A model generated the notes under the pieces. It was not told the DNA's origin. It saw only the letters and a program-made list of their open reading frames with translations, and searched no databases. A program made the translations under genes and the position numbers. A stretch of DNA of 43,331 bases from Erythrobacteraceae bacterium. Lineage in GTDB: Bacteria; Pseudomonadota; Alphaproteobacteria; Sphingomonadales; Sphingomonadaceae. Within the stretch, counting starts at the first letter, position 1. Each line of letters opens with the position of its first letter. Location of the stretch: contig JAIYEK010000231.1 in NCBI GenBank assembly GCA_027487015.1, forward strand, positions 1-43,331, read 5' to 3'. Positions 9,639 to 34,400 of this stretch are shown in pieces.

Positions 9639-10967
9639 TCAAAACGCGATGTGCACACCAAAGCCCGGGCGCGGGGCAATGGTGGCTCTGCCAGAATGGG
9701 CGGCCACGATTGCCGCAACCATGGCCAGCCCCAGACCATGGCCAGGCGTGGATCGGCTGCGGTCGACCCGTGCAAACCGATTGAAGAGGTCTGGCGCCTC
9801 ATTCTCGCTCACTCCCGGACCATCATCAGTGACGGCGAGGCAGATGCCGTTATGAGTGCTTTCGCAGGTGATGTGGACGGTCGTTCCCTGCGGCGTGTGC
9901 TGCGCGGCATTGTCGAGCAGGTTCGTGAGCATCTGTTGCAGCAGCCTGCGATCGCCGGGCAAAGTCAGGCCGGGCGCAATGCTGGTTACAAGCTGGTGGC
10001 CGCTGCTCTCCATTGAGGGTCGGAACGTCTCCGCCACATCGGCCACCACCGCGCTGAGATCCACCGTCTGGAAGTGCGCGCGGGCGGCCATGCCTTCGAC
10101 TTCGGCAATCCGCAGCAGGGCGGAAAAGACCTCCAGCAGTTCACCAGCTTCGCTTGCTGCCGCTTCGATTGCCTCGCGTTGCAGCTCGGGGTTGAGCTCG
10201 CGCAGGGCCTCGTCGAGCCGGTTTTGCAGCCGCGTGAGCGGCGTGCGCAGGTCGTGGGCAACATCGCTGGAAACCTGTCGCAGGTTCTCCATCAGCCCGG
10301 TAATGCGGTCGAGCATCCGGTTAAGCGTCGTGGCCACACCGTCAAACTCGTCGCCGCTTCCGGTCAGTGGCACGCGCCGCGAGAGATCGCCGGCAATGAT
10401 CGCAGCAGCCGTGTGATCGATGCGGGCAAGCCGCCGCTGCGTGACGATGCCCACCAGCCAAGCGGCACCGATGCCGAGCAACAGCATCGCTCCGAATGCG
10501 CCGAGGAACAGGAGTATGAAACGCCTGTCCATTTCGTCGATTGCGGCACGATCGGCCGCGACCAGCAACCGGTAGTCCCCGGGCAGGACCGTGGTCAGCG
10601 ATTGCGCGATCCGCTCCTCGCCACCCGCCTTATAGGGCAATAGTTCGACATAGCCGGGCTTTGGCGGGACAGTCGTATCGAGCGATCCTGCTACGGGTCT
10701 GTTTTGGGCATCGACGAGCCGATAGCCGAGGCTTGCCGTGCTGCTTGCCGCCTCGCGCCGACGGATAGCGGCAGCCACGCCCTCATGCCCGTCCTGCCCT
10801 TCATCGATTAGCGCCTGCGTCTCGATGGCGATGCGGTGATCGAGTTGCAATTCAAGTGCCTCATGGGTCGTTTCGAATGCGACCGCGCCGATCACCAGCG
10901 TTGCGAGCGCAAAGCCCACAGCGACAGCAGCCACCAGACCGAACGTGCCGCGCCACCAGCGCTTCAT
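9639..10967 (-). CDS. Two-component sensor histidine kinase (CusS/CopS-like)
   Basis: Start MKRWWRGTFGLVAAVAVGF at 10967 (4-nt overlap with RR stop); HAMP region, H-box SSDVAHDLRTPLTRLQ, N-box LLDNAAQHTPQGT, G-box GPGV/GHGLGLAMV. Confidence 0.93.
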   Translation of the reverse strand: MKRWWRGTFGLVAAVAVGFALATLVIGAVAFETTHEALELQLDHRIAIETQALIDEGQDGHEGVAAAIRRREAASSTASLGYRLVDAQNRPVAGSLDTTVPPKPGYVELLPYKAGGEERIAQSLTTVLPGDYRLLVAADRAAIDEMDRRFILLFLGAFGAMLLLGIGAAWLVGIVTQRRLARIDHTAAAIIAGDLSRRVPLTGSGDEFDGVATTLNRMLDRITGLMENLRQVSSDVAHDLRTPLTRLQNRLDEALRELNPELQREAIEAAASEAGELLEVFSALLRIAEVEGMAARAHFQTVDLSAVVADVAETFRPSMESSGHQLVTSIAPGLTLPGDRRLLQQMLTNLLDNAAQHTPQGTTVHITCESTHNGICLAVTDDGPGVSENEAPDLFNRFARVDRSRSTPGHGLGLAMVAAIVAAHSGRATIAPRPGFGVHIAF

Positions 10968-11641
10968 CCGCCGTCCCTGATGAGATAGCCCGCGCCGCGC
11001 ACGGTCTCGATCGGGTCGCTGTCGAACCCGGCGTTGAGTTTGGAGCGCAACCGGCTGAGGTGAGTCTCGACGATATTGGTCTTGGGGTCGAAGTCGAAAT
11101 CCCACACCCGTTCGAGTAGCATGGTGCGGGTCATGATGCGGCCGGGGTTGCGCATCAATTCGGTCAGAAGCGTGAACTCGCGGGGCTGGAGCGCAATCTT
11201 GCGGCCTGCGCGCGTGACGGTGCGGCGGTGCAGATCGAGCACAATGTCGCCTGCCGTCAGCCGCGCAGGCTCTGCTGCCGTCGAAGGCCGACGCCCCAGC
11301 GCTTGGAGACGGGCCGCCAGCTCGGTAAAGGCAAAGGGCTTCACCAGATAGTCATCCGCCCCGCCTTCGAGCCCTTCGACCCGGTCGCCAATCCCGCTGA
11401 CGGCGGTGAGCATCAGCACCGGGGTCATGTTTCCGGCAGCGCGCAGAGCCTTGACGAGAGCGAGGCCATCCAGCCCCGGCAGCATCCGGTCGACCACCAC
11501 GGCATCGAAGCCGCCTTCGGTTGCGTGATACAGGCCATCCCGCCCATCGCCGCTGGCCACCACCTGATGGCCCAGTTCGGCAAGGCCGCGGGCGATGAAC
11601 TGGTTGGTATCGGCATCGTCCTCGACGATCAGGATTCTCAT
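10964..11641 (-). CDS. OmpR/PhoB-family response regulator
   Basis: MRILIVEDDADTNQFIARGLAELGHQV...VDRMLPGLDGLALVKALR...; C-terminal winged helix RIMTRTMLLERVWDFDFDPKTNIVETHLSRLRSKL. Confidence 0.95.
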   Translation of the reverse strand: MRILIVEDDADTNQFIARGLAELGHQVVASGDGRDGLYHATEGGFDAVVVDRMLPGLDGLALVKALRAAGNMTPVLMLTAVSGIGDRVEGLEGGADDYLVKPFAFTELAARLQALGRRPSTAAEPARLTAGDIVLDLHRRTVTRAGRKIALQPREFTLLTELMRNPGRIMTRTMLLERVWDFDFDPKTNIVETHLSRLRSKLNAGFDSDPIETVRGAGYLIRDGG

Positions 11642-11645
11642 GCGA

Positions 11646-13025
11646 TCATTCTAGCGGCTTGGCACCGCTGCACCAGCCACCGCCAAGCGCGCGGAACAGC
11701 GCCACCTGCGCCTGCGCAACGGCGAGTTCGGACTGTGCGAGCGACAGTTCGGCTTGTGCCAGCGTCCGGTCGGCATCGATCCGTAGCAGCGGTGCCGCAT
11801 CGCCGAGCCGGACGCGCGCCTCGGCGCGGCGGGCATAGAGGCGTCCTTCGTCGCGCGCCTCGGTCAGCGCCCGGTTCCGGCGCACTTCGCCATCATAGGC
11901 CGCAAGCGCTGTCTCGACATCACGCAGCGCCCGGAGAACCACGACATCCCACCCGGCCAGCGCGGCCCGCTCGGCCGCCTCAGCCTGTTCGATCCGGGCG
12001 CGGGCCGGGGCCTGATTGGGGAAGGCCCAGCTCACCAGCGGTGAACCCGTTGCAACCAGCCCACCGCTCAGCAGGCCGAGTGCGCCGCCAAGGTTTATGC
12101 GGGGGTAGAGATCGGCACGCGCCACGCCGATCCGCGCCGTGGCGGCAGCGAGGCGGCGCTCGGCCTCACGGATGTCAGGGCGGCGCAGCAGCAGCGCGGT
12201 TCCATCACCGACGGGAGCCGCAGTGCGCAGTTTCGGCGGCGCGGTGCAAGTCACGGGATTGCTGCGGGCCTCTGCTGCCGGGCGTCCTGCGAGCGTGGCG
12301 AGGCGGTAGCGCGCATTGGCCTGCGCTGCTTCCAGCGGTGCAATGGCCGCCTTGGTCGCGGCGACAAGGTTGGCAGCCTGCGAGACTTCCAGCGGGGAGA
12401 CCTCGCCTGCCGCCAGCTGTCTACGGGTGATTGTCAGCGCGCGGTCCTGAAGCGCGACCTGTTCTTGCACGACGGCAAGGCTGCGGGTTGCTCCGCACAG
12501 ATCGACATAGGCCAGAACCGTATCCGCGACGACCGCGACCTTGACTGCATCGAGCGCAGCGGCCTGCGCTTCCGCATCGGCGCGGGCAGCGAGCGCACCT
12601 GAGCGAAGCCGACCGAACACGTCCGCATCCCAGCTTGCGGTTACCCCCAGATCGTAGTCGGTCGTCGGCACATTGCCCGAGGCGCTGGGCTGATTGGCGG
12701 GATTGTCGATGCCGAGGCTGCTCTCGATCGTGGTCTGGGGCAACCGGGCGGCTTGCGCCTGACGGAGCGCCGCACGCGCGCCATCGAGATTGGCATAGGC
12801 CACTCTGAGATCGGCATTGGCTGCAAAGCTGGCTTCGACCAAGCGGTCAAGCACAGGATCATCATAGAGCCGCCACCAATCATCGGGCACCGGCTCGATC
12901 GAAGCGACCGGCAGGCTCGCGAACGGTCCGGCTGCAATCGCGGGGTCGATCTTGGTTGCCGCAGGCGGGGACGTGGTCGCGCAAGCGGTCACCATCAGGG
13001 CAGCGAGGGGGACAAAGCGCTTCAT
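11646..13025 (-). CDS. RND efflux outer-membrane lipoprotein (NodT family)
   Basis: Start [21 protein letters not shown] at 13025 (lipobox); [47 protein letters not shown] typical of OEP proteins. Confidence 0.92.
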
Positions 13026-16000
13026 GCCACCGCCTCTGCCAGTTCGGGCTCGGGTGCCGGCTGTTCCTTGCCGAAGCGGGCATAGAGCGCGGGCATCAGG
13101 AACAGGTTGAGCGCAGTCGACGAGATTAGGCCGCCGAGGATGACGATCGCCATGGGATGCTCGATCTCGTGACCCGGCTTGTCGCCCGCGATCACCAGCG
13201 GCACCAGCGCAAGTCCTGCGCACATTGCGGTCATTAAGATTGGCACCAGACGTTCCTGCGCGCCGCGCAGGATCAGGGCCGGGCCGAACTCCTCGCCCTC
13301 GAACCGGCGCAGGTGATCATAGTGCGAGAGCAGCATGATCCCGTTGCGCGCCGAAATCCCGATCACCGTCACAAAGCCGACCAGCGATCCCAGCGACAGA
13401 ACCCCGCCGGTGAGCGCAACCCCGATCACCCCGCCGACCAGCGCGAAGGGCAGGCTGAGGCCCACCAGCGCGGTGATCCGGGCCGAACGAAACTCCAGCC
13501 AGACGAGCAGCAGGATGCCGAAAAGGCAGACCAGGCCCACCGTCCACAGCCGCGACCGCGATTCCTTGAGCGCTGCATATTCGCCGAGAATCTCGGGATG
13601 GTAGCCGGTGGCGAAGGGCACTTCGCTCACCGCCGCCTCAACCCCGCGCGCTACGGCTCCGAGATCGGCATCACTCGCGATATTGAGCGTGACATCGAGA
13701 CGGCGCTGGCCATCCTCGCGCTTGATTTCGTTGGGCGCGGGCACGATCACCACATCGGCGACGTCGCGCAGGCGCACCGGCGCGCCGACCGGGGTCTGGA
13801 TCATCAGATCGGCGAGCGCGTGCTGGTCGCCGCGAATGGCTGGCTCGCCCCACAAGGCGACATCGAAAGCCTTCTGGTCGCGGTAGATCTCGCCCAGCTT
13901 CTCGCCCGCCACGAGGGTCTGTGCCTGCCGCCGCACCTCGCCCGGCGTCAGGCCCAACGTGACCAGATCGGCCGCGCGCGGGCGGATCTGGATCTGCGGC
14001 ACCAGCACCTGCTGTTCGACCTTGAGGTCGGTTACACCGGGGATGCTGGCGACCTTGCCGCGCACCCGCTCGGCTGCGGCCCGCAGCTCGTCCTGATCGG
14101 GGCCGTAGATCCGCACCACCACGGTCGCGCCTGCGCCCGAGAGCACCTCCTTGATGCGCTCGCGCAGATAGGTGAGCACGTCGCGGTAGAGGCCGGGATA
14201 GCCGTCAACCACTTCCTTGATCCGGGCAACGCTGGCGTCGTAGTCGGCCCCATCGTCAAGGCTGATCCACAGTTCGGTGAAGTTCGGGCCGACCACCTCG
14301 TCAGCTGCCTCGGCACGCCCGATATGCGCACCGAAGTTGCGCACGCCGGGGATGGCCCGCAGCTCCTTCGAGGCGCGGATGGTGATGCGGTCCATCGCCT
14401 CGATACCGATGCCCGGCTTCTCGACGAAGTGCATAAGGAAGTCGGTCTCGCGGAAATCAGGTAGGAACTGGTCCTTGAATCCGAGGTAGCCTACGCCGGA
14501 AAGCAGCAAGCCGCCCGCGACGATGCCCATGGCAAGCCGTGGCCGTTCGATCAGCCGGGGCAGGACGCCAAGATAGCGCCGCTTGAGCGAGGCGACAAAG
14601 CGTGTGTCGCGATGCTCCTTCATCGGCGCATTGGGGAGCAGCATCAGGCACATCGCAGGCGTCACCACCAGCGCGACCAGCAGCGAGGCGGCAATTGCCA
14701 GCACATAGGCAATTGCCAGTGGCCGGAAGAATGTTCCTGCCACCCCGCCGAGGAAGAAGATCGGCAAGAATACCAGCATCACGATCAGCGAGGCAAAGAC
14801 AACCGCCGTGCGCACTTCGAGCGAGGCCGAGAGCACCACGGCAAAGGCCGAGCGCGGATTGCCCGCCTCCCGGTTCAGGCGGAGACGGCGGGCGATGTTC
14901 TCGACATCGATGATCGCATCATCGACCACCTCGCCAAGCGCGATCACCAGTCCGGCGATCACCATTGTGTTGATCGTCGCCCCGCTCCAAAGCAGCACCA
15001 GTCCTGCGGCCAACAGGGACAGCGGGATCGCCACAAGGCTGATCGTCGCCTGCCGCCAGTCACGTGTGAAGGCGAACAGCACGATCGCCACCAGCAGGCA
15101 GCCGATCATCAGCGCGCGGGTCAGGTTGTCGATCGACTTCTCGATGAAGGTTGCAGGGCGGAAGATCGTGGTGTCGATCTTGACGTCCTTGAGGCCGGGC
15201 CGCAGCTCTTCGACCGCTGCCTCGACGTCGCGGGTCAGCTGGAGCGTGTTGCCGGTCGGCTGCTTCTCGACGATCAGCATGATACCCGGGCCGTCGTCGA
15301 TGATCGCATTGCCGATGGGGGCGGCAAAGCCATCGGTCACCCGCGCGACATCCCCCACCCGCACCGGCGCATCGCCTGCGATCTTGATGACCGTGCGGGA
15401 AAGATCCTCGGCGGTCTGGATCGCGCCCGCCTGCTGCACCGGAAGCCGCTGGTTGGGCGTATCGACAAAGCCGCCGCCGCCGACCAGCACCGCATCCCCG
15501 GTCGCCGCGCGTAGTTCGGCCAGCGTGACGCCCGAGGCTTGCAGCCGATCGGGATCGGCCAGAACCTGCAACTGCCGGTCGCGGTAGCCCCACACGGCGA
15601 CATTGGCGACACCCGGCACTGACATCAGCTTGGGCCGGATCGTCCAGCGAACCAGCTCGGACAGCTGCATCTGATCGAGCTTCTTCGAGGAGATGCCGAT
15701 CTTCATTGCCCGACTCGTGGACGACAGCGGCGGCAGCATCACAGGCGGGCGGGCAGCGGCAGGCAGTCGCGCCTGCACCTGCGCCACCCGCTCCTGCACC
15801 AGCTGGCGGGCGCGGATGACATCAGTGCCGCGTTCGAACAGGATCGTCACCGAAGACAGCCCCAGCACCGACTTCGATCGCAGGGTTGCGAGATCGGGCA
15901 CGCCATTGACAGCGGTCTCGATCGGCACCGTGATCAGGCTTTCGACCTCCTCGGTCGACAGGCCCGGCGCTTCGGTCTGTATCTCGACGATAGGCGGAGC

Positions 16001-16126
16001 GAACTCGGGGAACACATCCAGCGGCACATCGGCAGAGGCGCGCAGGCCGAGCACGACAAGCAGCGCCGCCATCGCAAGCACCAGCACGCGCTGCTTGAGC
16101 GCCGAGCGAACCAGCCAGGCCAGCAT
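13022..16126 (-). CDS. Heavy-metal RND efflux pump (CusA/CzcA family)
   Basis: Start [30 protein letters not shown] at 16126; [49 protein letters not shown]. Confidence 0.95.
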
Positions 16127-17115
16127 CAGTGTGCGACCCCGAACTCGGTGCCGAACAGCTCGGCAGCGCCTGCCGTGACCACCAGCGTTCCGGGACGCAG
16201 GCCCCGCGACAGGATCGCGCGGCCACCTTCCGTTGCTGCCACCTCGATCCGCTGGCGCACATAGTTGTCGGCCTCGGTCTTGGCATAGACCCATTCGCCG
16301 CCGTAGATGTCCCGCAGGATCGCGGAGGTTGGCACCGACAGTCCTTCGCTCTGCCCGCTAGCAAGCGGCAGCGCGACGCTGACCCGCTGGCCGACACGGT
16401 AGGCCCGATCACGATTGTCGAGCGCGAAATAGAGATCGACGGTGCCGGCCACCGCATTGGCCGATGGCGGCGCATCGACGGGCCGCGCCGATCGTTTCGC
16501 GCCATCCTGTCCAAGCGGCGAGACCAGCGCCGACTGACCTTGTGGCAGCCCGGCAAGATCGCTCCCGAACACTGGCACCCGCACCCAGACGTAGCGTTGG
16601 TTGCCAAGGCTCGCCACCGCTGGCCCGAGCAGGCGGCGCTGGGCCGCAGCCGCATCGGCAGCAGCCTTGGCCGCACCGAGTGCTGCCGTCGCCTCATCCC
16701 GCGCACGGATGCTTCCCGCTTCCTCATCAACCAACGCCGAGGCGCGATCATAGGCGACGCGCGCCAAAGCAAGCTGCGCCCGTGCCCGCGCAAGTTCGCC
16801 ATCAGCGCCGACCTGCTGCACGCCAAGCTGTTGCAGATTGCTGGCGGAGTTGATCGGCGCGGCGCCGACCCCCGCCGGGACGACAATCTCACCGCTTGTC
16901 ATGCGCATGGCCGATGCGGTGCCCGTCCCGATCCGCTCGGTCACAATCCCGAGCCGCTTTTGCGCTTCCGGCGTAAGCTTCAGGCGGACAAGCTCGGTCT
17001 CGTGGGCGATTGCCTCGCTGTGGACCGGGGCCTTGGCAGGCGCAGCGGGTTCACCTCCGCAGGCGGTCAGGAGGATGGCAGGGCCGAAAGCGGCAAGGGC
17101 TAAGCGATTTGGCAT
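16126..17115 (-). CDS. RND efflux periplasmic adaptor (membrane fusion protein)
   Basis: Lipoprotein N-terminus [21 protein letters not shown]; hairpin and barrel-like region; stop overlaps CzcA-like start. Confidence 0.9.
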
Positions 17116-18262: not shown

Positions 18263-18839
18263 CGGCAGTGGCGCGTGCAGCGCCCCCCTCGACCCCGACT
18301 GTCTCGAGGAGAAGAAGATCCCTACAACTCTCCGCTTGCAACCCGCGGGTTCGGAAATCGTCGACTTTCCGGCGCCTATCGGCGTCCGAAACTTTAAACG
18401 GCGAATATTCGCCAGCTTTCTGGCAAACGTTTCGGAAAAGCTGCCGTGCAGCGTTCAAATACGGCCTTTCCTATGCAGCTTCGCGCAGGTTGTGGCGTCA
18501 CCGCCAGCGGGCCGATTTGCAATTGTATCTATGGGGCAACAAGAGGCATATGGCCGCCTTTCAACCTTCCACGCATAGACGGCAGTTGTTGACCCAAAGA
18601 CGGTCCTTCAGATCAGCTACCATGAACGTCTGCTGCTAACAGAAGCTGCCTTTGAACCGCTCGGCTCCAGACCGTTAAGAAGACGCCCTTTTTCGTCTTT
18701 CAGCGGGTTGGCCACCAAATCCACAAAACAGCCGCATGTTCACCTTGCGTTCTCAACGCCCTTGCCATATTCGTTCCGAATGTCACTGTCAAAGGGCACT
18801 GATTGCCACTACCCTTCAGCGCTCAATTAGAGGTCGCAC

Positions 18840-19892
18840 ATGGGTTTTCTGTCGGAAGAGCAATTCGCGTCGCTGCAGATCGAGCACATGATTCTGCATG
18901 TGGTTCGAGACGGCCCCTTCAACCCTGAGCTGGCGCGGGAGGTTGAACATCCCGATTTCTTCATCGAGCGCATCCGCAACACCGACGCGGCAAGCGTCTA
19001 TTCGTTCGAGCCGGAGTCTGCAGTCAAGGCGAAGATCGGTGAGATGGCACGGGGGGAGGTCACCTTCGAGGCGGGAGCACAGTCGCTGTCGCGGGAGTTC
19101 GCCAGATTGCATCATGGCGGACACAAGCCCGGGGCGCTCTTCATATTCGAGTTAAGCTGCGACGAGCCTGACGTCACCATCTACAGCCTGATCAAATACG
19201 ACTATCAGGAAGTCATCGAACAAGCCGATGCGGACGAAGGCAGTCTGCTGCGGCGCATTCTTCAGGCGTTTGTCGCGGAGAAGAAGGCCATTCAGAAGTC
19301 CGCAATGATCCGGGTGGTCGACGGCATTGTTGAAGATGCCGTTTCGACAATGGACCGAATGAAAGCAGCGCCCGCCATCGGCGACTATTTCGCCAGCTAC
19401 CTCCATGTGCGGCGTGAACGCAGCGACAGTGAACTGACCCAAGCCGTAAAAGACGTGGTCCGCCAGACGCTGATCGAAAGCAAGGACGTGCTGCCGGACC
19501 GGAACGTGCCGCGAGCGATCCAGCGCGCGCAAGCTGCGCTGCGGGACAGGCAGCAGATCGACGAGGATGCCGTGCACGAAGCCATCCTCGCGGCCGCTGG
19601 CAATCCCGAGGACGAAAGCATTCGGTCACAACTCCAGGTGCGGACTAGGCGAAAGCTCAGATCTGCTAAGCTGGAAGGCTTGGCCTTTCGACCCAGCGGG
19701 CAGATCCTTCAGCGCCCGCCCATCCGACAGGTGAAGACGACCGAGGGCGTAACCTTGATCTATCCGGACGACGCCGACGAACGCACGGTGCGTCGCGTCG
19801 ACACTGACGACGGCGGCCAGGTGATTACGGTTACAACGAGACACGTCACGGAGGACCGCGTTGTCCGCGACAAAAATCGCCCGCTGGCTTGA
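18840..19892 (+). CDS. Nucleoid-associated NdpA (NA37)-like protein
   Basis: 350 aa; HMILHVVRDG..., YSLIKYDYQEVIEQ, AEKKAIQKSAMIRV, AIGDYFASYLHVRRERSDSELTQAVKDVV resemble the YejK/NdpA layout. Confidence 0.6.
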   Translation: MGFLSEEQFASLQIEHMILHVVRDGPFNPELAREVEHPDFFIERIRNTDAASVYSFEPESAVKAKIGEMARGEVTFEAGAQSLSREFARLHHGGHKPGALFIFELSCDEPDVTIYSLIKYDYQEVIEQADADEGSLLRRILQAFVAEKKAIQKSAMIRVVDGIVEDAVSTMDRMKAAPAIGDYFASYLHVRRERSDSELTQAVKDVVRQTLIESKDVLPDRNVPRAIQRAQAALRDRQQIDEDAVHEAILAAAGNPEDESIRSQLQVRTRRKLRSAKLEGLAFRPSGQILQRPPIRQVKTTEGVTLIYPDDADERTVRRVDTDDGGQVITVTTRHVTEDRVVRDKNRPLA

Positions 19893-21174
19893 TCGGCTTC
19901 CGAGGCTTGGCGCCTTCGTCGTCGAGACCGCTGATACGGTAAGCGCGTCGAACCTCTCGGCTCGACAAACGCGCGAGCTCTGCGGGCTCGTCGAGGTGGA
20001 AGGGTGGCGACTAACAATCTTTGACCAAGCAAATGAAACATGGACTCGAGACGAGCTGGACGAGGATCTGGCTCCGTTCCGCGTGACGATCGTCAAACCG
20101 CCTGCGGGCATCGACGCGGCTCGTATTCTGACGGATGTTGGCTTTGCCGCATGGCTAGCCGAGCCCAGCGGATCGGTCTGCCAAGTCGCTCGGCTATCGC
20201 GCCCCTTCGAGACGCTCGGCATTCGGTTCACTAGCTGGGATGAACCCGCCAGTCCGTTCGAGCCCGCCGAGAAAACGGCCAGCCCCCGATCCCTTGTGCG
20301 CGAATACAACGGTCAGGCACGGGCTCCGGACGATGTTCGCACATGGCTGCTTCGCGACGTTGATGACATCCCTTTCGACAACTCCACTTTCCGTATCTGG
20401 ATGGCGGCTGCGGCCGTGCATACGCTTCGTGCCGTGCCGGACGAGATCGATCCGGTGAACGGCTCGCTCAAATTTAAGGGACCGCCGCGGCTGGCGCTCC
20501 ACGTCAGCGCGGACGTCACCGAGGTTCTTTCCGAACTCGGCATCGATGGTTTCAAGAACCTGCAGCGCGGCGTCCACTGGGTGTTCGAGAACCCTCGCGA
20601 AGCAGAGATGCGACATGCGCTGTTTGCCACCGAAGTTGCTCGCAGCGGAATAGAGACCGATCGCGCGGAGATTTATCTTCGTGAACACGCGGAAGCCGCC
20701 TTGGATGGTGCCAAAATTGCCTATCAGGTTTCGCTCGCTCAGCTGAGCAGCGAGACGCTCAAGTCCCTTGCGGATCTCCGCAAGGCCGTAACCGAGGAGA
20801 CCGCCAAAGTCACCGAAGCCACGCGGCAGATCGCGGGAGCTGTGGCCGCAGCGCTGGCGGTGGGTATCGGCCTCATGGCCGCACGGGTCACTGCGGCCGC
20901 ATCTGGCAACCTGATCATCGCGATCATGATCGTCGCTGCGGCTTACGTGTCGATGGTAATCTTGTCAGGCCTTCAGTTCGCCTGGCTGCAGCGTGACCTC
21001 CGCCGCGGTTGGCAATCTCGGCTGTATCGCTATCTTCCTCGATCAGAGTATCAGGCTCTGGTGCTCACACCCACCGGTCGAGCCGAAGCGTCACTATTCT
21101 GGGTTGCCGGGATTGGCGGCTTTATCATCTTGATTGTTTCGATACTGGTGATCTTTCCCATTATCTGGACGTAG
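19861..21174 (+). CDS. Membrane-anchored hypothetical protein (437 aa, C-terminal TM helices)
   Basis: TTG start inside the upstream gene (32-nt overlap); hydrophobic stretches IAGAVAAALAVGIGLMAA, LIIAIMIVAAAYVSMVILSGL, VAGIGGFIILIVSILVIFPIIW. Confidence 0.75.
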   Translation: MSATKIARWLDRLPRLGAFVVETADTVSASNLSARQTRELCGLVEVEGWRLTIFDQANETWTRDELDEDLAPFRVTIVKPPAGIDAARILTDVGFAAWLAEPSGSVCQVARLSRPFETLGIRFTSWDEPASPFEPAEKTASPRSLVREYNGQARAPDDVRTWLLRDVDDIPFDNSTFRIWMAAAAVHTLRAVPDEIDPVNGSLKFKGPPRLALHVSADVTEVLSELGIDGFKNLQRGVHWVFENPREAEMRHALFATEVARSGIETDRAEIYLREHAEAALDGAKIAYQVSLAQLSSETLKSLADLRKAVTEETAKVTEATRQIAGAVAAALAVGIGLMAARVTAAASGNLIIAIMIVAAAYVSMVILSGLQFAWLQRDLRRGWQSRLYRYLPRSEYQALVLTPTGRAEASLFWVAGIGGFIILIVSILVIFPIIWT

Positions 21175-21607
21175 CAAGACGAGCTGAGCAGCGTCGTGGA
21201 GGCTTAACGCCACACAAGGCCGCTCGATCTGCCTACGATCATTTGCCGGGACGGCAGGCGCTGGGTCGGGAGCAGCCGACTGAAGATATCGATTGGCAAT
21301 GACAGCTACTGCGCGTCGGTCGCCCGAGAGATGCCAGTCCAGCACCGGATCAGTTTATGTCTTTCTGCAATATCGGCCGACGCGCGCTGAACGACTGCTT
21401 CTGACGAAAACTGCCGCTCGGTAAAATACCTGCGAACGGCAGAGATGTCCCAAACCCGGCCTGCGACACCCGCAGGTAGCTTGCTCGCGTGCATGCGATC
21501 CGAACTTGCTATCAATTAGCCACGCCTATGCCGCTGATTTGGGAAAATTCCATTGCCGACGCCTCGCCGCGGGGTCGGCTGAGAGAAGGGAAAAGCCCTT
21601 CGGGCCG

Positions 21608-21630: not shown

Positions 21631-22575
21631 ATGAATACCATTAACGGCAAGAGCGCTGCCAGCGGCGGCAACGCCACCAATAATGCCGCACCTCCAAGCT
21701 GCGACCGGCAGCGCGTGCTGCTGCCGGTGCGCAAGCGGGTAGACTGGCCGCTGGAATACGACAGCAACGAAGCCCTGCGGAAAATTGCGGTGATAGACAC
21801 CGAAACAACCGGGCTGGACTGGGCCAAACACCGGGTCATCGAGATCTGCGCGGCGTCCGTGCTAGTGAATGCCGAGGGCCGGATCATTGCCATCGAACGT
21901 GTGGGCACCGGCCTTGAGTATCCCGGCCACCCCCTATCGCGGGAGATAAGCGAGCTTACCGGTCTCACCGATGCCATGCTTGAGAACAAGGTAATCGACC
22001 GGGACAAGCTCACGCCATTCTTAAGCGAGTGCGAAGCTGTGTTGGCGTTCAATAGCGGCTTCGACCGCAGCTTCGCCGAAGCTCTTCTGCCAGATCTGCC
22101 CGCGATGTCCTGGGGCTGCGTCATGGCCGATGTCCCGTGGCGCAAGCTCGGCTTCGAAAATGGCCCTCAGAATTACCTGCTCATGCAGGCGGGCCGGTTC
22201 GCCGCCGAAGCCCACCGGGCGAAGCAAGACGTGCTGTCCCTGATCGAGCTGCTGGATCATGTCTGCACTGATGGGACAAGCATCATGGCCAAGGTGCTGT
22301 CGGCCATCGACGCGCCAGCGTGGCGGTTTGAGGCGACGTGGGCGAGCTACCACCAGCGGGATCTGCTGCGCGATCGACGCTATAGGTGGCGGCCGGACGG
22401 GCGCAGCGGAGTCTGGCACAAGCATATCCGCGGTGACGAATATCAAGCTGAATGGGAATGGCACTTGAGCGTCATTGGTCATGAACCCGCGGTCATCCCG
22501 CTGCCGGCGACCGAACGGTATCGCCATGATCGGTCTTGGAAGCCGGTCGAACGCAAAGCGAAGATTACCGCCTAG
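21631..22575 (+). CDS. DnaQ-like (DEDDh) 3'-5' exonuclease
   Basis: ExoI VIDTETTGLDWAKHRVIEICA, ExoII LAFNSGFDRSFAEALLP, ExoIII HRAKQDVLSLIELL. Confidence 0.88.
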   Translation: MNTINGKSAASGGNATNNAAPPSCDRQRVLLPVRKRVDWPLEYDSNEALRKIAVIDTETTGLDWAKHRVIEICAASVLVNAEGRIIAIERVGTGLEYPGHPLSREISELTGLTDAMLENKVIDRDKLTPFLSECEAVLAFNSGFDRSFAEALLPDLPAMSWGCVMADVPWRKLGFENGPQNYLLMQAGRFAAEAHRAKQDVLSLIELLDHVCTDGTSIMAKVLSAIDAPAWRFEATWASYHQRDLLRDRRYRWRPDGRSGVWHKHIRGDEYQAEWEWHLSVIGHEPAVIPLPATERYRHDRSWKPVERKAKITA

Positions 22576-24065: not shown

Positions 24066-24207
24066 GGCCAAGGCGTAATGGCGTCAGCGAACGACACCGC
24101 CGGACACCATCGCCGCATTGGTTCGAGAAACAGCGGCACAGCCGAAAAGGAGCCAGAGGAAGGAGGAAGGGAGTGGGTTGGGATCAACCCATGAAAGGAA
24201 AAAGGAA

Positions 24208-25002
24208 ATGCCAAAGTTCACGTTCATCGACATCGAATCTCTCTGGGATCCACAGCTTCACGAGGCCTATCTCGCCATCGATCCGAATGGCGACAGGAAG
24301 ACTGATCGCAATGGCAATATCCGCCACCGTCTCGCATGCAGGCGCGTTATAGCCGCCGCAGCCTTCGATGTTGAAGTGTTGGAAGGCGGCGCGATAGCGA
24401 TCGGAGGGCTGCGCGCCTGGGATGAGCATCAATATGGAGACGAGCTGGAGGTTGTAACCAAGCTGTTCGATCATCTCCGCCAGCGCCCGGACACCAACGC
24501 TGTCACCTGGAGCGGGCTCGCAGCCGATTTGCCGCTCCTCAATCTTGCGGCAATCGAGCACCACCTCGTGCTGCCGCCTCAACTCCGGGCGAACATGTTG
24601 CATGCCGCCCGCCGCAGCTCTTGGCGGCCCCATATCGACCTTGCCCTGCAGATGAAGGGCAATGGGCGGGACTGGTCGCACATGACAGAGGTCGGACTGA
24701 GGCTGGGCCTTCCTGCCGAGCTGTTCGCAGGCAAGGCTGATATCGCCGAACCGCGGAATGGCGAGGAATGGCAGGCGATGAGCCACCGGGTCGGCACCGA
24801 CTGCATCCTCACCGCCATGATCGCGCTGGTTTGGTGGCGGGCCAATGGTCTGATCGCCCTCGATCAGGTTGCCGCCCTCCACAACATCGCCGATTGGTGC
24901 CTGCGGAACAAAGCTGTCGCCGATGCCCATGAAACCCCGCTCGCCCGCCTTCGGGGAGAAATGTTCAGGCGTATGGGGGACGAATGGCACGAGGCTGCCT
25001 AG
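24208..25002 (+). CDS. Predicted PolB-type 3'-5' exonuclease-like protein
   Basis: MPKFTFIDIESLWDP (ExoI-like DIE), TWSGLAADLPLLNLAA (ExoII-like), GTDCILTAMIALVWW (ExoIII-like); SD AAAGGAA. Confidence 0.6.
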   Translation: MPKFTFIDIESLWDPQLHEAYLAIDPNGDRKTDRNGNIRHRLACRRVIAAAAFDVEVLEGGAIAIGGLRAWDEHQYGDELEVVTKLFDHLRQRPDTNAVTWSGLAADLPLLNLAAIEHHLVLPPQLRANMLHAARRSSWRPHIDLALQMKGNGRDWSHMTEVGLRLGLPAELFAGKADIAEPRNGEEWQAMSHRVGTDCILTAMIALVWWRANGLIALDQVAALHNIADWCLRNKAVADAHETPLARLRGEMFRRMGDEWHEAA

Positions 25003-25785: not shown

Positions 25786-28089
25786 TCAAGAAAACAAGTG
25801 CTTCTGAATGTCGATGAACGCGCCACGGATTTCTGGGATTGAGCCTAGCACCCGCTTGGCATCGTTGGTCCCGCCATACCGGATCTGGAGGAAGTCGCTG
25901 ATTCGGTGCGGGGCGAGTTCGTCGATCCCCTGCAGCTCGTAAGCCTGCAGGATGTAGCCGAGGAACTCGCGCATCTCGGCTTCATAGCCATCGAGGCCGG
26001 TTGCCTTCGCACCCACTACCCGCTCCGACCGTGACAGCGGGTCGAGCGTGAACCGCACGTAGGCCAGCACGTCGAAGATGTCGCTTTTGGGGGCATCGAT
26101 CAGGCGGCGCATATCGTCCATGCGGTCGCGGTCGTAGCCCATCTCTTCGAGCCGCTGGATGAATGCCGTGCGCTTTTCGGGATCGGTCCAGATGGCGCGG
26201 AGCTCGTCGGCGCTCGCAACCATCGTGCCGAGGTCGCCGAACAGCTGCTCCATGAACTCTTTCGCGGTGATCTGCCGACCGTTGAACCAGTAGGTCGTCT
26301 CGGCAACATACCGGATCTTGCGTTCCTTGCCGTCGGCGAGCCTCACCACCACGCGCTCGACCGGAGGCATGGGCTCGATCGGATCGTCACCACCACCATC
26401 AGGCGGCTCAGGTGGCATCGGCGGCCGAGGCCCGGTCGACCCTTCGATCAGCTCCTCCGGCTCGCCGTCCCACGCCGGATCCTTGAAGTGCTCGTAGGCC
26501 TTCACGAAGTCGTAGATCGTGAAGAAGTCCTTCCCGTCGAACGTCCGCGTGCCCCGGCCGATGATCTGCTTGAACTCGATCATCGACTTCACAGGCCGCA
26601 GCAGCACAATGTTGCGCACGTTGCGGGCGTCCACCCCGGTCGACAGCTTCTGCGACGTGGTGAGGATCGTCGGCAGCGTCTTCTCGTTGTCCTGGAACTC
26701 GCGCAAGTGCTGCTCACCCAGCTTGCCGTCGTCCGCCGTCACCCGCTCGCAGTAGTGCGGGTCGGGGTTCTTCTTCACCTGGTTGATGAAGTTGCGCACC
26801 CGGGCGGCGTGATCCTGCGTCGCACAGAACACCAGCGTCTTCTGGCGCTCGTCGATCTGGTCCATGAACTCGCACACGCGGCTCATCTCGCGCTCGTCGA
26901 TGATCAGCTTCGTGTTGAAATCGGCCTCGGTGTATTCCTTGTCGGGGTCGATCTCCCCGCTCACCACCTCGTCCTCGTCGCTGAAGGTGTAGGTGTCCAT
27001 CGTGCTCGCCATCTGGCGCACCTTGAACGGCGTGAGGAAGCCGTCGCCGATCCCTTCCTTCAGCGCATAGGTATAAACCGGATCGCCGAAATAGCGGTAG
27101 GTATCCGCATTCACGTCGCGCTTGGGCGTGGCGGTAAGGCCCAGCTGCACGGCGGGCGCGAAGTATTCGAGGATCCCGCGCCATGTGCTTTCATCGCGCG
27201 CGCCGCCGCGGTGGCATTCGTCGATCACGATGAAGTCGAAGAAGTCAGGCTCATAGCCCTCGAACCGGAACTCGTCCTCGCCGGTCATGAAGGTCTGGAA
27301 GATCGTGAAGAACACGCTCGCATTGGTGGGCACCTTGCCCTGCTTGCGGATTTCCTCGGGGCTGATCCGGCACAGCGCATCGGGCGGGAAGGCGCTGAAG
27401 GCGTTGTAGGCCTGATCGGCGAGAATGTTGCGATCGGCGAGGAACAGGATGCGCGGGCGGCGGGTCGGCTCTCGGGTCAGGTTCCAGCGCGACTGGAACA
27501 GCTTCCACGCGATCTGGAACGCGATCGAAGTCTTGCCCGTGCCGGTGGCCAACGTCAACAGTATGCGCTGCTGATCCTTGGCAATCGCCTCGAGCACGGC
27601 GGTGATGGCATTGTGCTGGTAATAGCGCGGCTGCCACTTGCCACCACCGGTCTCGAAGGGAACCGCGCCGAAGCGCTCACGCCACGCATTGCCGGTGGGA
27701 AAGCATCGCTGCCACAACTCGTCCGGCGTCGGGAAAGGCGGGGCGATGGCCCCTTCCTTGCCCGTGTGCATGTCGACCTCATACCACTCGGCCCCGTCGG
27801 AGGCGTAGGCGAAGCGGGCTTTCAGCCGGGTCGAATAGTCCTTGGCCTGACCGACACCTGCGCCCGCACCCTTGCCGTGGCGCTTGGCCTCCATCGTGGC
27901 AAGCTTGTGGCCGCGATACTCGAAGACGTAATCGGCCGAGAGCGGAGCGCCGCGCTGGCCGCCGGGCATGATGCGGCCGGGGCAGATCGCCTCCCGCCGG
28001 ATATGCGCGCTCTCGACCACACCCCAGCCGGCCGCGCGCAGCACGGGATCGATGCGGTTCGCGCGGGTATCGGCCTCGGTTTCCTGCAT
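25786..28089 (-). CDS. hsdR: Type I restriction endonuclease subunit R
   Basis: ATMEAKRHGKG nuclease motif, TLATGTGKTSIAFQIAWKL Walker A, VIDECHRGG (DECH), GLTATPKRD, QIIGRGTRTFDGKDFFTIYDF. Confidence 0.96.
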   Translation of the reverse strand: MQETEADTRANRIDPVLRAAGWGVVESAHIRREAICPGRIMPGGQRGAPLSADYVFEYRGHKLATMEAKRHGKGAGAGVGQAKDYSTRLKARFAYASDGAEWYEVDMHTGKEGAIAPPFPTPDELWQRCFPTGNAWRERFGAVPFETGGGKWQPRYYQHNAITAVLEAIAKDQQRILLTLATGTGKTSIAFQIAWKLFQSRWNLTREPTRRPRILFLADRNILADQAYNAFSAFPPDALCRISPEEIRKQGKVPTNASVFFTIFQTFMTGEDEFRFEGYEPDFFDFIVIDECHRGGARDESTWRGILEYFAPAVQLGLTATPKRDVNADTYRYFGDPVYTYALKEGIGDGFLTPFKVRQMASTMDTYTFSDEDEVVSGEIDPDKEYTEADFNTKLIIDEREMSRVCEFMDQIDERQKTLVFCATQDHAARVRNFINQVKKNPDPHYCERVTADDGKLGEQHLREFQDNEKTLPTILTTSQKLSTGVDARNVRNIVLLRPVKSMIEFKQIIGRGTRTFDGKDFFTIYDFVKAYEHFKDPAWDGEPEELIEGSTGPRPPMPPEPPDGGGDDPIEPMPPVERVVVRLADGKERKIRYVAETTYWFNGRQITAKEFMEQLFGDLGTMVASADELRAIWTDPEKRTAFIQRLEEMGYDRDRMDDMRRLIDAPKSDIFDVLAYVRFTLDPLSRSERVVGAKATGLDGYEAEMREFLGYILQAYELQGIDELAPHRISDFLQIRYGGTNDAKRVLGSIPEIRGAFIDIQKHLFS

Positions 28090-28093
28090 TGGA

Positions 28094-29278
28094 TCAGGTC
28101 AGCTCCCCGGCGAAGGCCTTTTGCAACAAAGCTTGGCGAAGCCTTTGTAACTCATCAATCTTCGCTTGGCACTGGTCGCGAAGTCGGGTGGAGTAGCCCC
28201 GCATCGCTTTCATCTGACTGACGATTGCCCGCTGCTCTTCCAGCGTGGGATAGGCGAAATCGACCTCCTTGGCAGCGCCGACATTGAAGTGCTTTTGCGC
28301 TGCTCCGACCGATTTCTCCGACACCATCTTCTTACCGAAGCTGGAGTTCAGGAACATCGCCAAAAATTCAGGGTGTAACACCTCTTTCGGCCTCGCGATC
28401 ACGAGGTCGGCGCAATTGGCGAGTGGCAGGTCGTCAGGGATCACTGCCGCTGTGCCGGGATAGCCTGTGCGGACAATTGCCACATCGCCCGGCCGCAACT
28501 CTGACTTCTTCAATTCCGCTCGAAACGCGTCATCAATGAACTTCACATCGGCAAGGTCGATGCGGAACGGACGGACATTCTGCGAGCGGAGGAACGGCGT
28601 GCCCTCGGATGAATACCGGTCCGCCATTGGGCCAACAAACCCAACGGTTATTTGGTGGCAGAGGTCCCGCAGCTTGCTTGATGTCCACTCTGCCGGATGA
28701 TCGTGGAAGACAGCCGTTAACCAGCCGTCGAACAACGCCTCTGCATCGGCCAGATTGGCTTCGGCGAGGGCGCGGGCGCGGTCGAGGGCGGCGAAGGACT
28801 GATCCAGCACCGCAACAATCCGCTTCTGCTCCTCCAGCGGGGGAATGGGGATCGGAATTTCCCTCAGACGCCCTTGGTTGAGTTTAGGCACGGTCATGCC
28901 GGAGATGAACTCGGTCAGGTCGGCAGCGTTGAGGTAGTAGATCAGCCATTCGTCCGTGACGATTTGACGATGTGGCCGGAGCACGTGCGCGTGATTGTTA
29001 ACCCACGTCTTGCCACTCACTGCGAAGGCAGACGCATCTCCAGCGCCCCATTTTGCTCCATCCTCGCCGATCAGCACCAGCGGTTCGTCAAAGATGAACC
29101 CGCTCACCCAATCGAGGACCCCGGTGGCGCCATAGTAAGGATAAGGGCCAGCCACGCGGTCTCGCTTCGTGATCGGCCTGCGCTTGCTGTCCAAAATGTC
29201 GACGATGTCGCCGAGGAATTTGCTTTGCCAAGCAGAAGTCGCGACCAGTTCAGTTGCTAGGCTGCTAGCTGCGCTCAC
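28094..29278 (-). CDS. hsdS: Type I restriction specificity subunit S
   Basis: Two TRD halves with conserved IPIPPLEEQKRIVAVLDQSFAALDRARALAE and YPTLEEQRAIVSQM repeats. Confidence 0.96.
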   Translation of the reverse strand: MSAASSLATELVATSAWQSKFLGDIVDILDSKRRPITKRDRVAGPYPYYGATGVLDWVSGFIFDEPLVLIGEDGAKWGAGDASAFAVSGKTWVNNHAHVLRPHRQIVTDEWLIYYLNAADLTEFISGMTVPKLNQGRLREIPIPIPPLEEQKRIVAVLDQSFAALDRARALAEANLADAEALFDGWLTAVFHDHPAEWTSSKLRDLCHQITVGFVGPMADRYSSEGTPFLRSQNVRPFRIDLADVKFIDDAFRAELKKSELRPGDVAIVRTGYPGTAAVIPDDLPLANCADLVIARPKEVLHPEFLAMFLNSSFGKKMVSEKSVGAAQKHFNVGAAKEVDFAYPTLEEQRAIVSQMKAMRGYSTRLRDQCQAKIDELQRLRQALLQKAFAGELT

Positions 29279-30726
29279 AGCATCCCCCGGATCTCTTCGA
29301 GGATCTGCCGCGTCTCCTCGTCGCGGGCGAGCATGTCGGCGATGATCTGCTCGGGCGCGCGCAGCGGCGCTTCCTCCGGCGCGGTGGGGTTACGGACCGA
29401 CAGATCCCACGTCGCCTTGTCGAGATCGTCGACATTCACCGTCCAGCTCTTGGCGCTGTCCGTCTTGTTTGGCTGGAGCGCGACGAACTCGGTCAAATCG
29501 GTATCGTTGAGCGGATTGGTCTTGCCCATCGAGCGGCCCGGATCGAGCTGGTAATACCAGACCTGCCGGGTGGGCGCTCCCTTTTCGAAGAACAGCACCA
29601 CCGTCTTCACCCCCGCGCCCTGGAACGTGCCACCGGGGCAATCGAGCACGGTGTGGAGGTTGCAGCTGGTCAGCAGCTCCTTACGCAGTTCGACACTGGC
29701 GTTGTCGGTGTTGCTGAGGAAGGTGTTCTTGATCACCACCGCCCCGCGCCCACCCGCCTTCAGCTTGCGGATGAAGTGCTGCATGAAGAGGTAGGCGGTC
29801 TCCCCCGACTTGATCGGGAAGTTCTGCTGCACCTCCTTGCGCTCACCCCCGCCGAAGGGCGGATTGGCCAGCACGATGTCGTGACGGTCGGCCTGCTGGA
29901 TGTCCATCACGTTCTCGGTGAGCGTGTTGGTGTGCCGGATCTGCGGCGCCTCGATCCCGTGCAGGATCATGTTCATCACCCCCAGCACATAGGCGAGCGA
30001 CTTCTTCTCCTGCCCGTAAAAGGTCTTGCGCTGGAGCGTGTCCCATTCGGCCGCAGACAGGTCAGGGCGGCGCAGGTATTCGAAGGCTTCGCACAGGAAG
30101 CCTGCCGAGCCAGCCGCACCGTCATAGATGGTCTCACCGATCTTGGGATCGACAACCCTGATCATGGCGCGGATAAGCGGGCGCGGGGTGTAGTATTCGC
30201 CGCCATTGCGGCCGGCATTGCCCATTCGCTTGATGCGGGTCTCGTAGAGGTCGGACAGTTCGTGCTTGGCCTTGCTGCTGCCGAAATCGAGCGTGTCGAC
30301 GATGTCGATCACGTCGCGCAGGGAGTAGCCGGAGCGGAAGCGGTTGATGATCTCGGTGAAGATCTCGCCGATCTTGTATTCGATCGTATCGGGATCGTCT
30401 GCGTCGGCGCTGAAGGTCTTGAGGTAGGGGAACAGCTCGCCGTTGACGAAGTCGATCAGGTCCTGCCCGGTCATGGCGATCTGGTGGTCGATCTCGCCAT
30501 CATCCCGCTTGGGCGCGGCCCACACGTCCCAGCGGTATTCGGGATCAAGGATGGGCTGGTATTCGCGCCCCTCAAGCTCGGCTTCATCCTCCTGCGCGGC
30601 TTCGAAGTCGTCGAGGTATTTCAGGAACAGGAGCCAGCTGGTCTGCTCGGCGTAGTCGAGCTCGGACGCAAGGCCCTCGTCGTTGCGCATGGCCCGGTCG
30701 ATATTGTTGAAAGCGTTTTCGAACAT
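29275..30726 (-). CDS. hsdM: Type I restriction-modification DNA methyltransferase subunit M
   Basis: Start MFENAFNNIDRAMRNDEGLASELDYAEQTSWLLFLKYLDDFE; GEYYTPRPLIRAMIRVVDP; catalytic DIVLANPPFGG. Confidence 0.97.
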   Translation of the reverse strand: MFENAFNNIDRAMRNDEGLASELDYAEQTSWLLFLKYLDDFEAAQEDEAELEGREYQPILDPEYRWDVWAAPKRDDGEIDHQIAMTGQDLIDFVNGELFPYLKTFSADADDPDTIEYKIGEIFTEIINRFRSGYSLRDVIDIVDTLDFGSSKAKHELSDLYETRIKRMGNAGRNGGEYYTPRPLIRAMIRVVDPKIGETIYDGAAGSAGFLCEAFEYLRRPDLSAAEWDTLQRKTFYGQEKKSLAYVLGVMNMILHGIEAPQIRHTNTLTENVMDIQQADRHDIVLANPPFGGGERKEVQQNFPIKSGETAYLFMQHFIRKLKAGGRGAVVIKNTFLSNTDNASVELRKELLTSCNLHTVLDCPGGTFQGAGVKTVVLFFEKGAPTRQVWYYQLDPGRSMGKTNPLNDTDLTEFVALQPNKTDSAKSWTVNVDDLDKATWDLSVRNPTAPEEAPLRAPEQIIADMLARDEETRQILEEIRGML

Positions 30727-30881
30727 GGGTGATGGCGTATCGCGGTTTGCAGCGCGCGCCAATGGGGTTGGCGAGGAAATTCGCGGTATGCTGAAAGCCA
30801 CCGCAGTTGCCCAAGCCTCTGTTTCTTTTTACAACTCAGGCCGGCAAGTGTTTCCAAGCAGGGTGAGCGGACTGGAGGATC

Positions 30882-31426: not shown

Positions 31427-34400
31427 TTGAGCGCGGCTGCCAATCCACAGGTTCGCAGGCTATTTGATGAAACCCGCCGGCGGTTGGTGGAAACGGGGAC
31501 GCGGAATCGACTTGTCCACGTTAATCGGGCCAACACCCGCGGTGCTGTCGTCAACATCGAGGATGAACGTTCCGACGATGTTTATCAGATGCTGTCTGGC
31601 GGGCGGACGATGCGGTTCCGTCCACTCGGTAAAGATCGCCACCAGCAAGGCGAAATCTTGTTGTCGGCAACCGAGGAGGTTGGCAGCGGCGGCGCGGACG
31701 AAAGTCGATATACAGACAATCAGCTCGACACGCTGCTGGGTCCGGACGCGCTGGCGAAAAAGCTGCTCAAGATTGCACGGGATGCCCGAACCGCCGAAGA
31801 GGAGCAGGGCGTTAACATCCTCTATCTGGCGCTCGGCTTCGTTACCTGGTTCGAGGATGAGAAATCAGATGTGCGCCGCGAAGCGCCGCTCGTGCTGCTT
31901 CCCGTCGAGCTGATCCGCAACCAGCGCACGTCGACCTATGATCTCCGCATGCGCCCGGATGACCTGATGACCAACCTGCCTCTGCAGCAGCGCTGGCAGG
32001 ACGATTTCGGTCTGGTGCTGCCGGACCTTGAAATCGAGGACGATTGGCGACCTTCTGACTACTTCGATCGGGTAGAGGCGATCGTCGGTAAGCGCGCGCG
32101 CTGGTCAATCGATCGCAATGGGATGCAACTTGGCTTTTTCTCGTTCTCCAAGCTGCTGATGTATCGCGATCTTGACCTTGATGCATGGCCCGATGGCAAT
32201 CTCGAGAACCATGATCTGGTCCGGGGCCTGCTTTATGAGGGCTTCGGAGAAGACCAGTCCCCGTTTGGTCACGGTGAGAGCCTCGACGCCGTGTTGCCGC
32301 CCGAGAATATCTGCCACGTGGTCGATGCTGACGCGAGCCAAGCCAAGGTGATCGAGGAAGCCCGCTGCGGAAAGAACCTTGTCGTTCAAGGTCCGCCGGG
32401 AACGGGGAAGAGCCAGACGATCGCCAACATCATTGCGGCAGCAGCGAAAGAGGGGAAGTCCGTCCTCTTTGTGGCCGAGAAGATGGCAGCTCTGGAGGTG
32501 GTGCACGACCGTTTGGTGAAGGTCGGGCTTGCCGATATCTGCCTCGAACTCCACTCTCGCACGGCCAATAAACGCCAAGTGCTGGAGGAACTTAAGCGGA
32601 CGCTGAATGCTGGGGAAGCTATCCCCGCCATGCCAGAACAGCCGGATGCTCTGCGCAAAACCCGGGACGAGCTCAACGCAATTGCTCAGGCTCTCCACGC
32701 CCCGGTTGGTGAAACCGGGGAAACCGCCTTTCGCATGCTGAGCAGACAGGCCCGATATATCGGCCTCGGTGCGCAGCCGCCGACATTTGCCAGCCCCAAC
32801 CTGTCATCCATGGATCGTGCAGCTGAGCAACGAGCAGTGACGGCGCTTTCGCGTTATGGCGCGGCGCTTGAAGCTACTGGCGATCCCGCAGCCCACCCAC
32901 TTCGCGGGGTCCGCAACACATCTTTGCAACCTGTCGACCAAGCGCGTTTGAGACCGCTGATCGAGAGCGTCCATGACGACGTCGCCGGCTTCAACATGGC
33001 GATGGATGCTGCGCTCGATGTGGTGGGACTGGCTGATGGTGGCTGGTTCGATCTCGCAGACTCGATGGTCGAACTGCTTCGAGCCTTGGATGGCCTGGGG
33101 CAGTCGCAGGCGGGGTTAGCCCAGAAAATGCTTCGTTGCGCAGATCGCCAGAGGTTGAAGGCGACTCTCGCGCTCGGCAAACAGTGGCACGACGAACGCG
33201 ATGCTGCCCGCGACCTGTATCTCGATCATGCATTTTCGACCGATGTAACTCATTTGCGTGGTCCATTGGCCGCTGGGACTCTGTCATTTTTCTCTCGGTG
33301 GGGTGGCGCTTACCGTGCCGCCTCTCGCGAGCTGGCAGGGCTTCTGAAGACAGCCCTCCCGGGTAGTGCCGATGGCCGCCTCGAGTATGTCGACCGGCTC
33401 CTGGAAATCGCACGGCTGCGCGGTGAATGGGCGGTGGACGAACCGTTCTGCCAAGCGGCAGTCGGCGAAGATTGGCGCGGCGAACGCACTGATTGGAACG
33501 CTATCGAGTCTGTATGCGACTGGGCACATCACGTTATTGCGGCCAACACTGATATCCAAGCTGAAACCGACGATCTCGTTTCGGCCGCTCTGGCAAATGG
33601 TCGGGATGGCCTGATCGAGAGAATTCAGGCGTCGGGAGAGCAGGCTTGGAAATCCCTAAGCGAGCTTCGCACCCTTTTTGACCTCGGCGACGATCGTTTC
33701 CCGGACGGATGGCGCGAGGCTGACCTGCCGCTGATCATCGAAGCGCTCACCGAGATGGCAGGCGCGGTCGACCAGTATCCGGCTTGGGCCGAATTGGTCG
33801 CGGCGAAAAAGATCGCGGATGCAGAGGGCATTGAAACGCTTGCTGACCGGCTCGCCAACGGCGACATGAATGTTGAGAACGCGACAATTGAGCTGAGGTT
33901 CGCACGGGCTGAAGCGATTTGGCGACGTGCCGTGGCTTCAAACTCCGCACTAGCCGACCTGGCCAACGTCGATCGTCATGCGCTCGTTGCCCAATTCTCG
34001 CATCTCGAAAAGAAGCACCTGCATGACAATGTGACCGGCATCGTTGCTGGCCACCTTTCCCAGCTGCCCCGCGGTGCCCTCGGTGAGATGAAAATCATCA
34101 GAGGTGAGATGGGGAAGAAGCGCGGCCACAAGGCCTTGCGCCGCCTCTTTTCGGAGGCCCCCACCGCGATACAGCGGATCAAGCCGGTCCTGCTCATGAG
34201 TCCGATTTCCGTGGCGCAGTATCTCACGCCGGGCACGCACTCTTTTGATCTTCTCCTCATCGACGAAGCCAGCCAGGTGCGCCCTGAAGATGCGTTGGGC
34301 GCCATCGCACGTGCACGGCAGGTTGTTGTCGTCGGTGATCAGAAGCAGCTGCCGCCGACATCATTCTTTGACCGCCTCACCAGTGGCGACGGTGATGACG

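Follow-up and report, generated by a model that had tools for sequence, protein, structure and literature searches.

A mobile gene pair of an NA37/YejK-family protein and a membrane-anchored partner: a candidate two-component defence unit

Described relatives and analogues

The proteins of the NA37 family (PF04245), among them E. coli YejK and pneumococcal StaR, associate with the nucleoid; YejK acts on topoisomerases and StaR activates topoisomerase I (PMC10053502). A link to phage defence comes from the DefensePredictor study (DeWeirdt et al., Science 2026, PMC13092281), in which 94 E. coli transcription units were tested and 42 validated; in the accessible parts of that paper, one of the validated systems is said to have "a YejK nucleoid-associated domain", new to defence, and the legend of its Fig. 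3 has "TM" and "CC" among the abbreviations. No other paper linking NdpA or NA37 to phage defence was found in the open-access literature. Further points of comparison are Kiwa, in which a membrane lattice of KwaA brings the DNA-binding, non-cleaving KwaB to the injection site (review PMC12904381), and the SLATT and 2TM effectors of CBASS-like, nucleotide-signalling defence.

Our subject is a pair of overlapping genes, A and B, in a 43,331-nt stretch of DNA, the whole of which is here called the window. The sequence-only reading had seen in them an undescribed two-gene defence system, reminiscent of Kiwa in its logic but lacking a direct sequence match to it. The absence of a match agrees with our comparisons: the KwaB family PF16162 (DUF4868) is absent from the window genome, and we rejected both A as KwaB and B as KwaA, hhalign giving probabilities of 0.3% and 0.1% against four proteins of each kind. 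What the two share is the arrangement of two genes, overlapping or adjacent, one coding for a membrane protein and the other for a protein associated with DNA, an association that is presumed in the case of A; the order differs, however, as Kiwa has KwaA before KwaB (four loci, same class), whereas in the pair the membrane gene comes second. We take the link to Kiwa as an analogy, one of shared logic only.

The claim of novelty stands in part. Neither protein of the window matches a known system in PADLOC-DB 2.0, and B belongs to no Pfam family, but the 2026 DefensePredictor paper makes the word "undescribed" uncertain: as far as its accessible parts describe the YejK-domain system, an NA37/YejK domain is found there, as in our pair, in an accessory E. 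coli operon. The protection against phages reported in those parts belongs to that system. Its identity with our pair family is conceivable, although we rate it somewhat below an even chance because several other NA37 operons occur in E. coli relatives.

Gene layout and the two proteins

Both reading frames are present as the sequence-only reading gave them (Table 1), with an overlap of 32 nt. The overlap is not a chance arrangement, as in 86 of all 93 loci, each with one intact A and one B, the start of B precedes the end of A, by 4–125 nt with a median of 35. The TTG start of B is made credible by the GGAGG that precedes it, and the AGAGG ahead of A is identical in the Sphingomonas loci L018 and L019. 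The 5' flank of A looks non-coding, and a promoter scan of the upstream region found no sigma-70 consensus on the + strand.

Table 1. Features of the gene pair, its surroundings in the window and other accessory NA37 operons
Feature	Location	Strand	Description	Basis
Gene A	18840–19892	+	NA37/YejK-family protein, 350 aa, ATG start	ORF, profile and structure comparison
Gene B	19861–21174	+	membrane-anchored partner, 437 aa, TTG start	ORF, segment prediction and model
AGAGG	18829–18833	+	probable ribosome-binding site of gene A	sequence read
GGAGG	19850–19854	+	probable ribosome-binding site of gene B, within gene A	sequence read
Mobile cassette	18679–21348	+	sole stretch common to the window and two Sphingomonas loci	blastn
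tRNA-Leu (gag)	33–119		very start of contig; possible island insertion site	
Relaxase	6767–9445		MobA/MobL	
Efflux operon	9639–17115		two-component system and RND efflux	
DEDDh exonuclease	21631–22575		RNase_T; directly downstream of the pair	PADLOC DEDDh 5e-18
Exonuclease-like gene	24118–25002		PolB-exonuclease-like	
Type I R-M operon	25786–30801	-	HsdR, HsdS, HsdM	PADLOC
Helicase-type protein	31427–36112		1561 aa; PDC-S37 match full-length, Hhe partial	PADLOC
GmrSD-N protein	36431–37573		after the helicase-type gene; NsnA match too	
B, N-terminal part	residues about 1–215		soluble, alpha/beta	predicted model
B, helices	residues 219–262			predicted model
B, long helix	residues 269–343		75 residues, continues into TM1	predicted model
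B, motif	K301-x3-D305-L-R-K308		directly ahead of TM1	
B, TM1	residues 323–341			hydrophobic segment
B, TM2	residues 351–369			hydrophobic segment
B, TM3	residues 417–435			hydrophobic segment
Type 1 NA37 operon	L143–L147		~410–440 aa partner, two or three membrane segments at its C-terminus; prophage-borne or next to integrases	
Type 2 NA37 operon	L148, L149		Zn-ribbon NA37 and a 388–422 aa protein	
Type 3 NA37 operon	L150–L153		RelA_SpoT protein	PF04607, 4e-17 and 7e-16
Type 4 NA37 operon	L154, L155		~307 aa protein and a ~375 aa protein	PADLOC Hp1 (3e-7) for the former
Type 5 NA37 operon	L156		partner of 523 aa, two membrane segments at its C-terminus	

The sequence-only reading was right to call A an NdpA/NA37-like protein, and the family is NA37 by two independent routes, profile and fold. 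PF04245 is matched by 50 of the 59 homologues of A (best 8.1e-22) and, above the cut-off, by the E. coli copies (9e-13 and 2e-12), though the Pfam NA37 model is missed by the copy in the window; aligned with hhalign to chromosomal YejK proteins, the family matches over 290 columns (E 2.4e-5, probability 76%). An AlphaFold model of A, built from the 59 natural homologues (pLDDT 85), matches only one PDB entry below 0.001, the E. coli YejK structure 9be2 (E 2.9e-6, probability 1.00; the global TM-score is low, 0.35), and PGAP annotates relatives of A as "nucleoid-associated protein". Weak matches to Terminase_2, JetA3 and NsnC are not common to the family and were rejected as its identity, and an integrase fragment, 3lys (E 0.008), was taken as chance; in PADLOC, the matches of A members were limited to JetA3 at 0.0036 in two and Unk_06 in one.

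The description of B as a soluble N-terminal part followed by two to three C-terminal membrane helices likewise fits, the number of hydrophobic segments being three. In the AlphaFold single-chain model (pLDDT 93.7), TM2 and TM3 lie in two long helices additional to the one that runs into TM1, and conservation is strongest at K301, at D305-L306-R307-K308 and at the tryptophans W180, W240 and W384. The distribution of charges suggests that the N-terminal part and the loop 370–416 are cytoplasmic, the net charge of the loop being +4 in the window and +2 as the median of the family, and the C-terminus would accordingly be periplasmic; relatives often carry a Pro/Ala/Ser-rich C-terminal tail. We found no relative of B in Pfam, none of the window copy in PADLOC, and no structural match below 0.001 in PDB or BFVD. 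B resembles the SLATT/2TM effectors in having a C-terminal membrane-helix bundle after a long cytoplasmic helix, but the window copy matches neither SLATT nor Saf_2TM, the Rac copy giving one weak match to the latter (0.046), and the pair, unlike CBASS-like systems, contains no nucleotide synthase.

Pairing, mobility and surroundings

Searches with B alone returned 76 loci from 84,980 species genomes and 7 from IMG/VR; B was used for the viral contigs because a scan with A alone had found nothing, the conserved stretches of A being too short. Of these 83 loci, 82 have a homologue of A immediately upstream of B, and in the remaining one the contig ends; among the 82, A is frameshifted in one and B is split in two. 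Even in two distant Enterobacteriaceae copies, where B scores only 1e-21, A still precedes it. The protein distances of A and B correlate with r = 0.946 in a mirror-tree comparison, a value reached by none of 2000 permutations, the maximum of which was 0.10. The hosts, which include unrelated bacteria, are alpha-, beta- and gammaproteobacteria, and the nearest relatives of the window copy are in Sphingomonas; the occurrence in one Bacteroidetes MAG (L084) probably reflects mis-binning. Broken copies also exist: on pSymA of Sinorhizobium meliloti (L003) an intact A is followed by B in several frames, and B is split in much the same way in L059 and L070. On an IncHI2A resistance plasmid of Klebsiella variicola (L007, NZ_CP044051), a truncated B without A, immediately behind an IS26 copy, is a remnant of the pair.

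DNA similarity to two Sphingomonas loci is confined to the pair. When 21-kb loci from Sphingomonas sp. R647 (L018) and GM_Shp_1 (L019) were compared with the window by blastn, each gave a single match, the tabulated cassette at 91.4% for L018 and 18603–21340 at 88.7% for L019, with unrelated flanks; between themselves, the two loci match at the same pair region and over one further 150 bp. As judged from these alignments, the moving unit is therefore a 2.7-kb cassette that comprises the pair and short flanks, some 160 bp on the upstream side and 170 bp on the downstream side. Synonymous codon differences between the window and L018 outnumber replacements by 46 to 11 in A and 64 to 30 in B, and both proteins are consequently under purifying selection.

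The places where the pair is found are those of mobile DNA, and an integrase adjoins it in several groups. It is present in 33 of 5426 complete E. coli genomes: three copies belong to the leuX region, where they neighbour an integrase at tRNA-Leu as well as an N-6 methylase gene and an HNH gene of retron type, and about thirty are nearly identical to one another. The one looked at among these is carried by a Rac-type prophage, flanked by hok-like and Q antiterminator genes on the opposite strand. This spot is the usual place of morons in prophages; a Rac-type pair of E. coli spans L096:9954–12417. The pair is also carried by conjugative plasmids, including IncC pKAZ5, and by the Thiobacimonas phage vB_ThpS-P1; no E. 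coli relatives were found for the Pantoea and pKAZ5 copies. On a Methylocystis plasmid it stands beside DUF262, PLD-type and DUF1156 anti-phage genes, and on a Rhizobium plasmid gene A adjoins the end of a gene (L010:6458–7933) whose motif HWDADHW is like that of metallo-beta-lactamases.

In the window, the tRNA-Leu and the relaxase suggest that the region is an island; with its two-component system and RND efflux operon, it carries cargo besides defence. The R-M and helicase modules that the sequence-only reading had placed near the pair are both downstream, as the Type I R-M operon and the PDC-S37/Hhe-like helicase. The nearest downstream gene of similar size is the DEDDh exonuclease; the Sphingomonas locus L036 has a related exonuclease some 4 kb downstream of its own pair. 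The 150 nearest neighbours in 64 sequence groups include 6 phage integrases, alongside GmrSD, PtuA (Septu), Abi_2 and PLD proteins. The surroundings are rich in defence genes: at 1e-10, 144 PADLOC families are matched by these neighbours and 5 by a control set, which consisted of 137 genes taken at 20 random places in four alphaproteobacterial chromosomes. This enrichment gives the direction and not the size of the effect, as PADLOC models overlap one another and the control set is confined to those four chromosomes.

Sister operons and function

Our survey of 295 Enterobacteriaceae genomes found NA37 in 195, nearly always as the single core yejK; unlike the paired A, this chromosomal gene is single-copy in most of the genomes sampled and has no gene B. 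Two NA37 matches were present in 18 genomes, and while four of these represent a split gene (G424, G450, G543 and G558), the other 14 have a second, divergent gene. All 14 start or sit in a tight operon, with gaps of -53 to +14 nt, and the operons are of five types (Table 1). A SLATT-like 2TM gene lies upstream in three of the four type 3 loci (SLATT_4 3e-4, PADLOC 2TM effector 1e-5), and no homology to B was detected in the type 1 partners (probability 0.7%) or in the membrane partners of the other NA37 operons. One conserved NA37 component with exchanged partners is the pattern of a sensor and its effectors, which is why we take A to be the sensor and B the effector, a division suggested by operon structure. 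This pattern of NA37-led operons is a more interesting result than the pair itself. We suggest, tentatively and with a little less than even confidence, that the NA37 fold of the housekeeping YejK lineage has become a general sensor module, at the head of at least five kinds of accessory operon with an exchanged partner, be it a B-type membrane protein, an unrelated protein with C-terminal membrane segments, a RelA/SpoT synthetase together with a SLATT-like 2TM protein, or soluble proteins that are uncharacterised; the window pair would then represent the alpha- and gammaproteobacterial branch with the B-type effector.

The pair likely acts in anti-phage defence. The basis for this is comparative, namely obligate pairing, co-evolution, mobility and a defence-rich context, and the validated E. 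coli system with a YejK domain provides a precedent, in so far as the accessible parts of its description go (PMC13092281). Of the original proposal of a two-gene defence system, the obligate cassette, the defence-rich mobile neighbourhoods and the placement in a hotspot and prophages are borne out by comparison, while phenotype and mechanism are what we infer. The explanation that we favour, with a confidence just above even, is a mobile two-component unit against phages or mobile elements, with A as sensor or regulator and B as membrane effector. As a cytoplasmic protein of the NA37 family, A would associate with DNA; B, in the inner membrane, may dock A with its soluble part and hold it near the membrane, and its long helix and three membrane segments would carry the response. 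On meeting invading or topologically abnormal DNA, the presumed trigger, A could release or reshape B, which would then compromise the membrane so that the infected cell stops, that is, abortive infection. Since no relative of known function could be detected for B, its role as a membrane effector is argued from topology and analogy.

If correct, the favoured explanation would describe a housekeeping-type nucleoid protein turned into a sensor of invaders with exchangeable effectors, comparable to the cyclases and reverse transcriptases of CBASS and retrons. It would explain the lone "nucleoid-associated protein" genes of prophages and islands, offer a testable mechanism for the YejK-domain system already protecting E. 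coli, and raise the question of which feature of phage DNA the sensor reads: its coating, its topology or the activity of topoisomerases. The Rac-prophage and leuX copies in E. coli make the pair testable in laboratory strains.

A Kiwa-like tether, in which B senses infection at the membrane and holds A at injection sites, has the same two-part logic as membrane KwaA with non-cleaving, DNA-binding KwaB (PMC12904381), and it would suit the origin of A in a nucleoid-associated family and the large predicted cytoplasmic part of B; A would coat the incoming DNA so that it is neither replicated nor transcribed, and the cell would not be killed. We nevertheless consider the tether rather unlikely, given that A and B are unrelated in sequence to KwaB and KwaA, and that the RelA/SpoT and SLATT-like or soluble partners in the sister NA37 operons fit a sensor–effector scheme better. 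Less probable again is a maintenance or addiction module that stabilises an island, plasmid or prophage, as a toxin–antitoxin or by a nucleoid function, with no action on phages. The pair is indeed always on mobile DNA, and while A is found with a broken B, an intact B lacking A was seen only where a contig ends; however, the broken copies of B persist beside an intact A, many defence genes adjoin the pair, and a maintenance role fits poorly with its presence in lambdoid prophages, where it is a moron, and in chromosomal islands, where it is a bare cassette.

The remaining argument against our favoured explanation, to which we give a similarly low probability, concerns a set of polar residues in A that could form a catalytic site, a ligand site or a contact with B. 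None of the 59 paired A proteins departs from K119, Q152, K153 and D172, nor do the distant copies or those of E. coli and the phage, and position 121 of the paired proteins is D or E; none of the K119, K153 and D172 set is present in chromosomal YejK, which lacks the whole signature, and K119, D121, Q152, K153 and D172 together are specific to the clade. Were this a gained catalytic site (K119-x-D121, Q152-K153, D172), A would be the effector, a nuclease or a nucleotide-modifying enzyme, and B its membrane sensor. Such a role is improbable, as the order of the residues matches no nuclease motif known to us, YejK is the sole PDB match of the A model, and binding to B or to a ligand could account for the invariance. 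Among the other NA37 operons, the signature is whole in type 5, and most of it is found in type 4.
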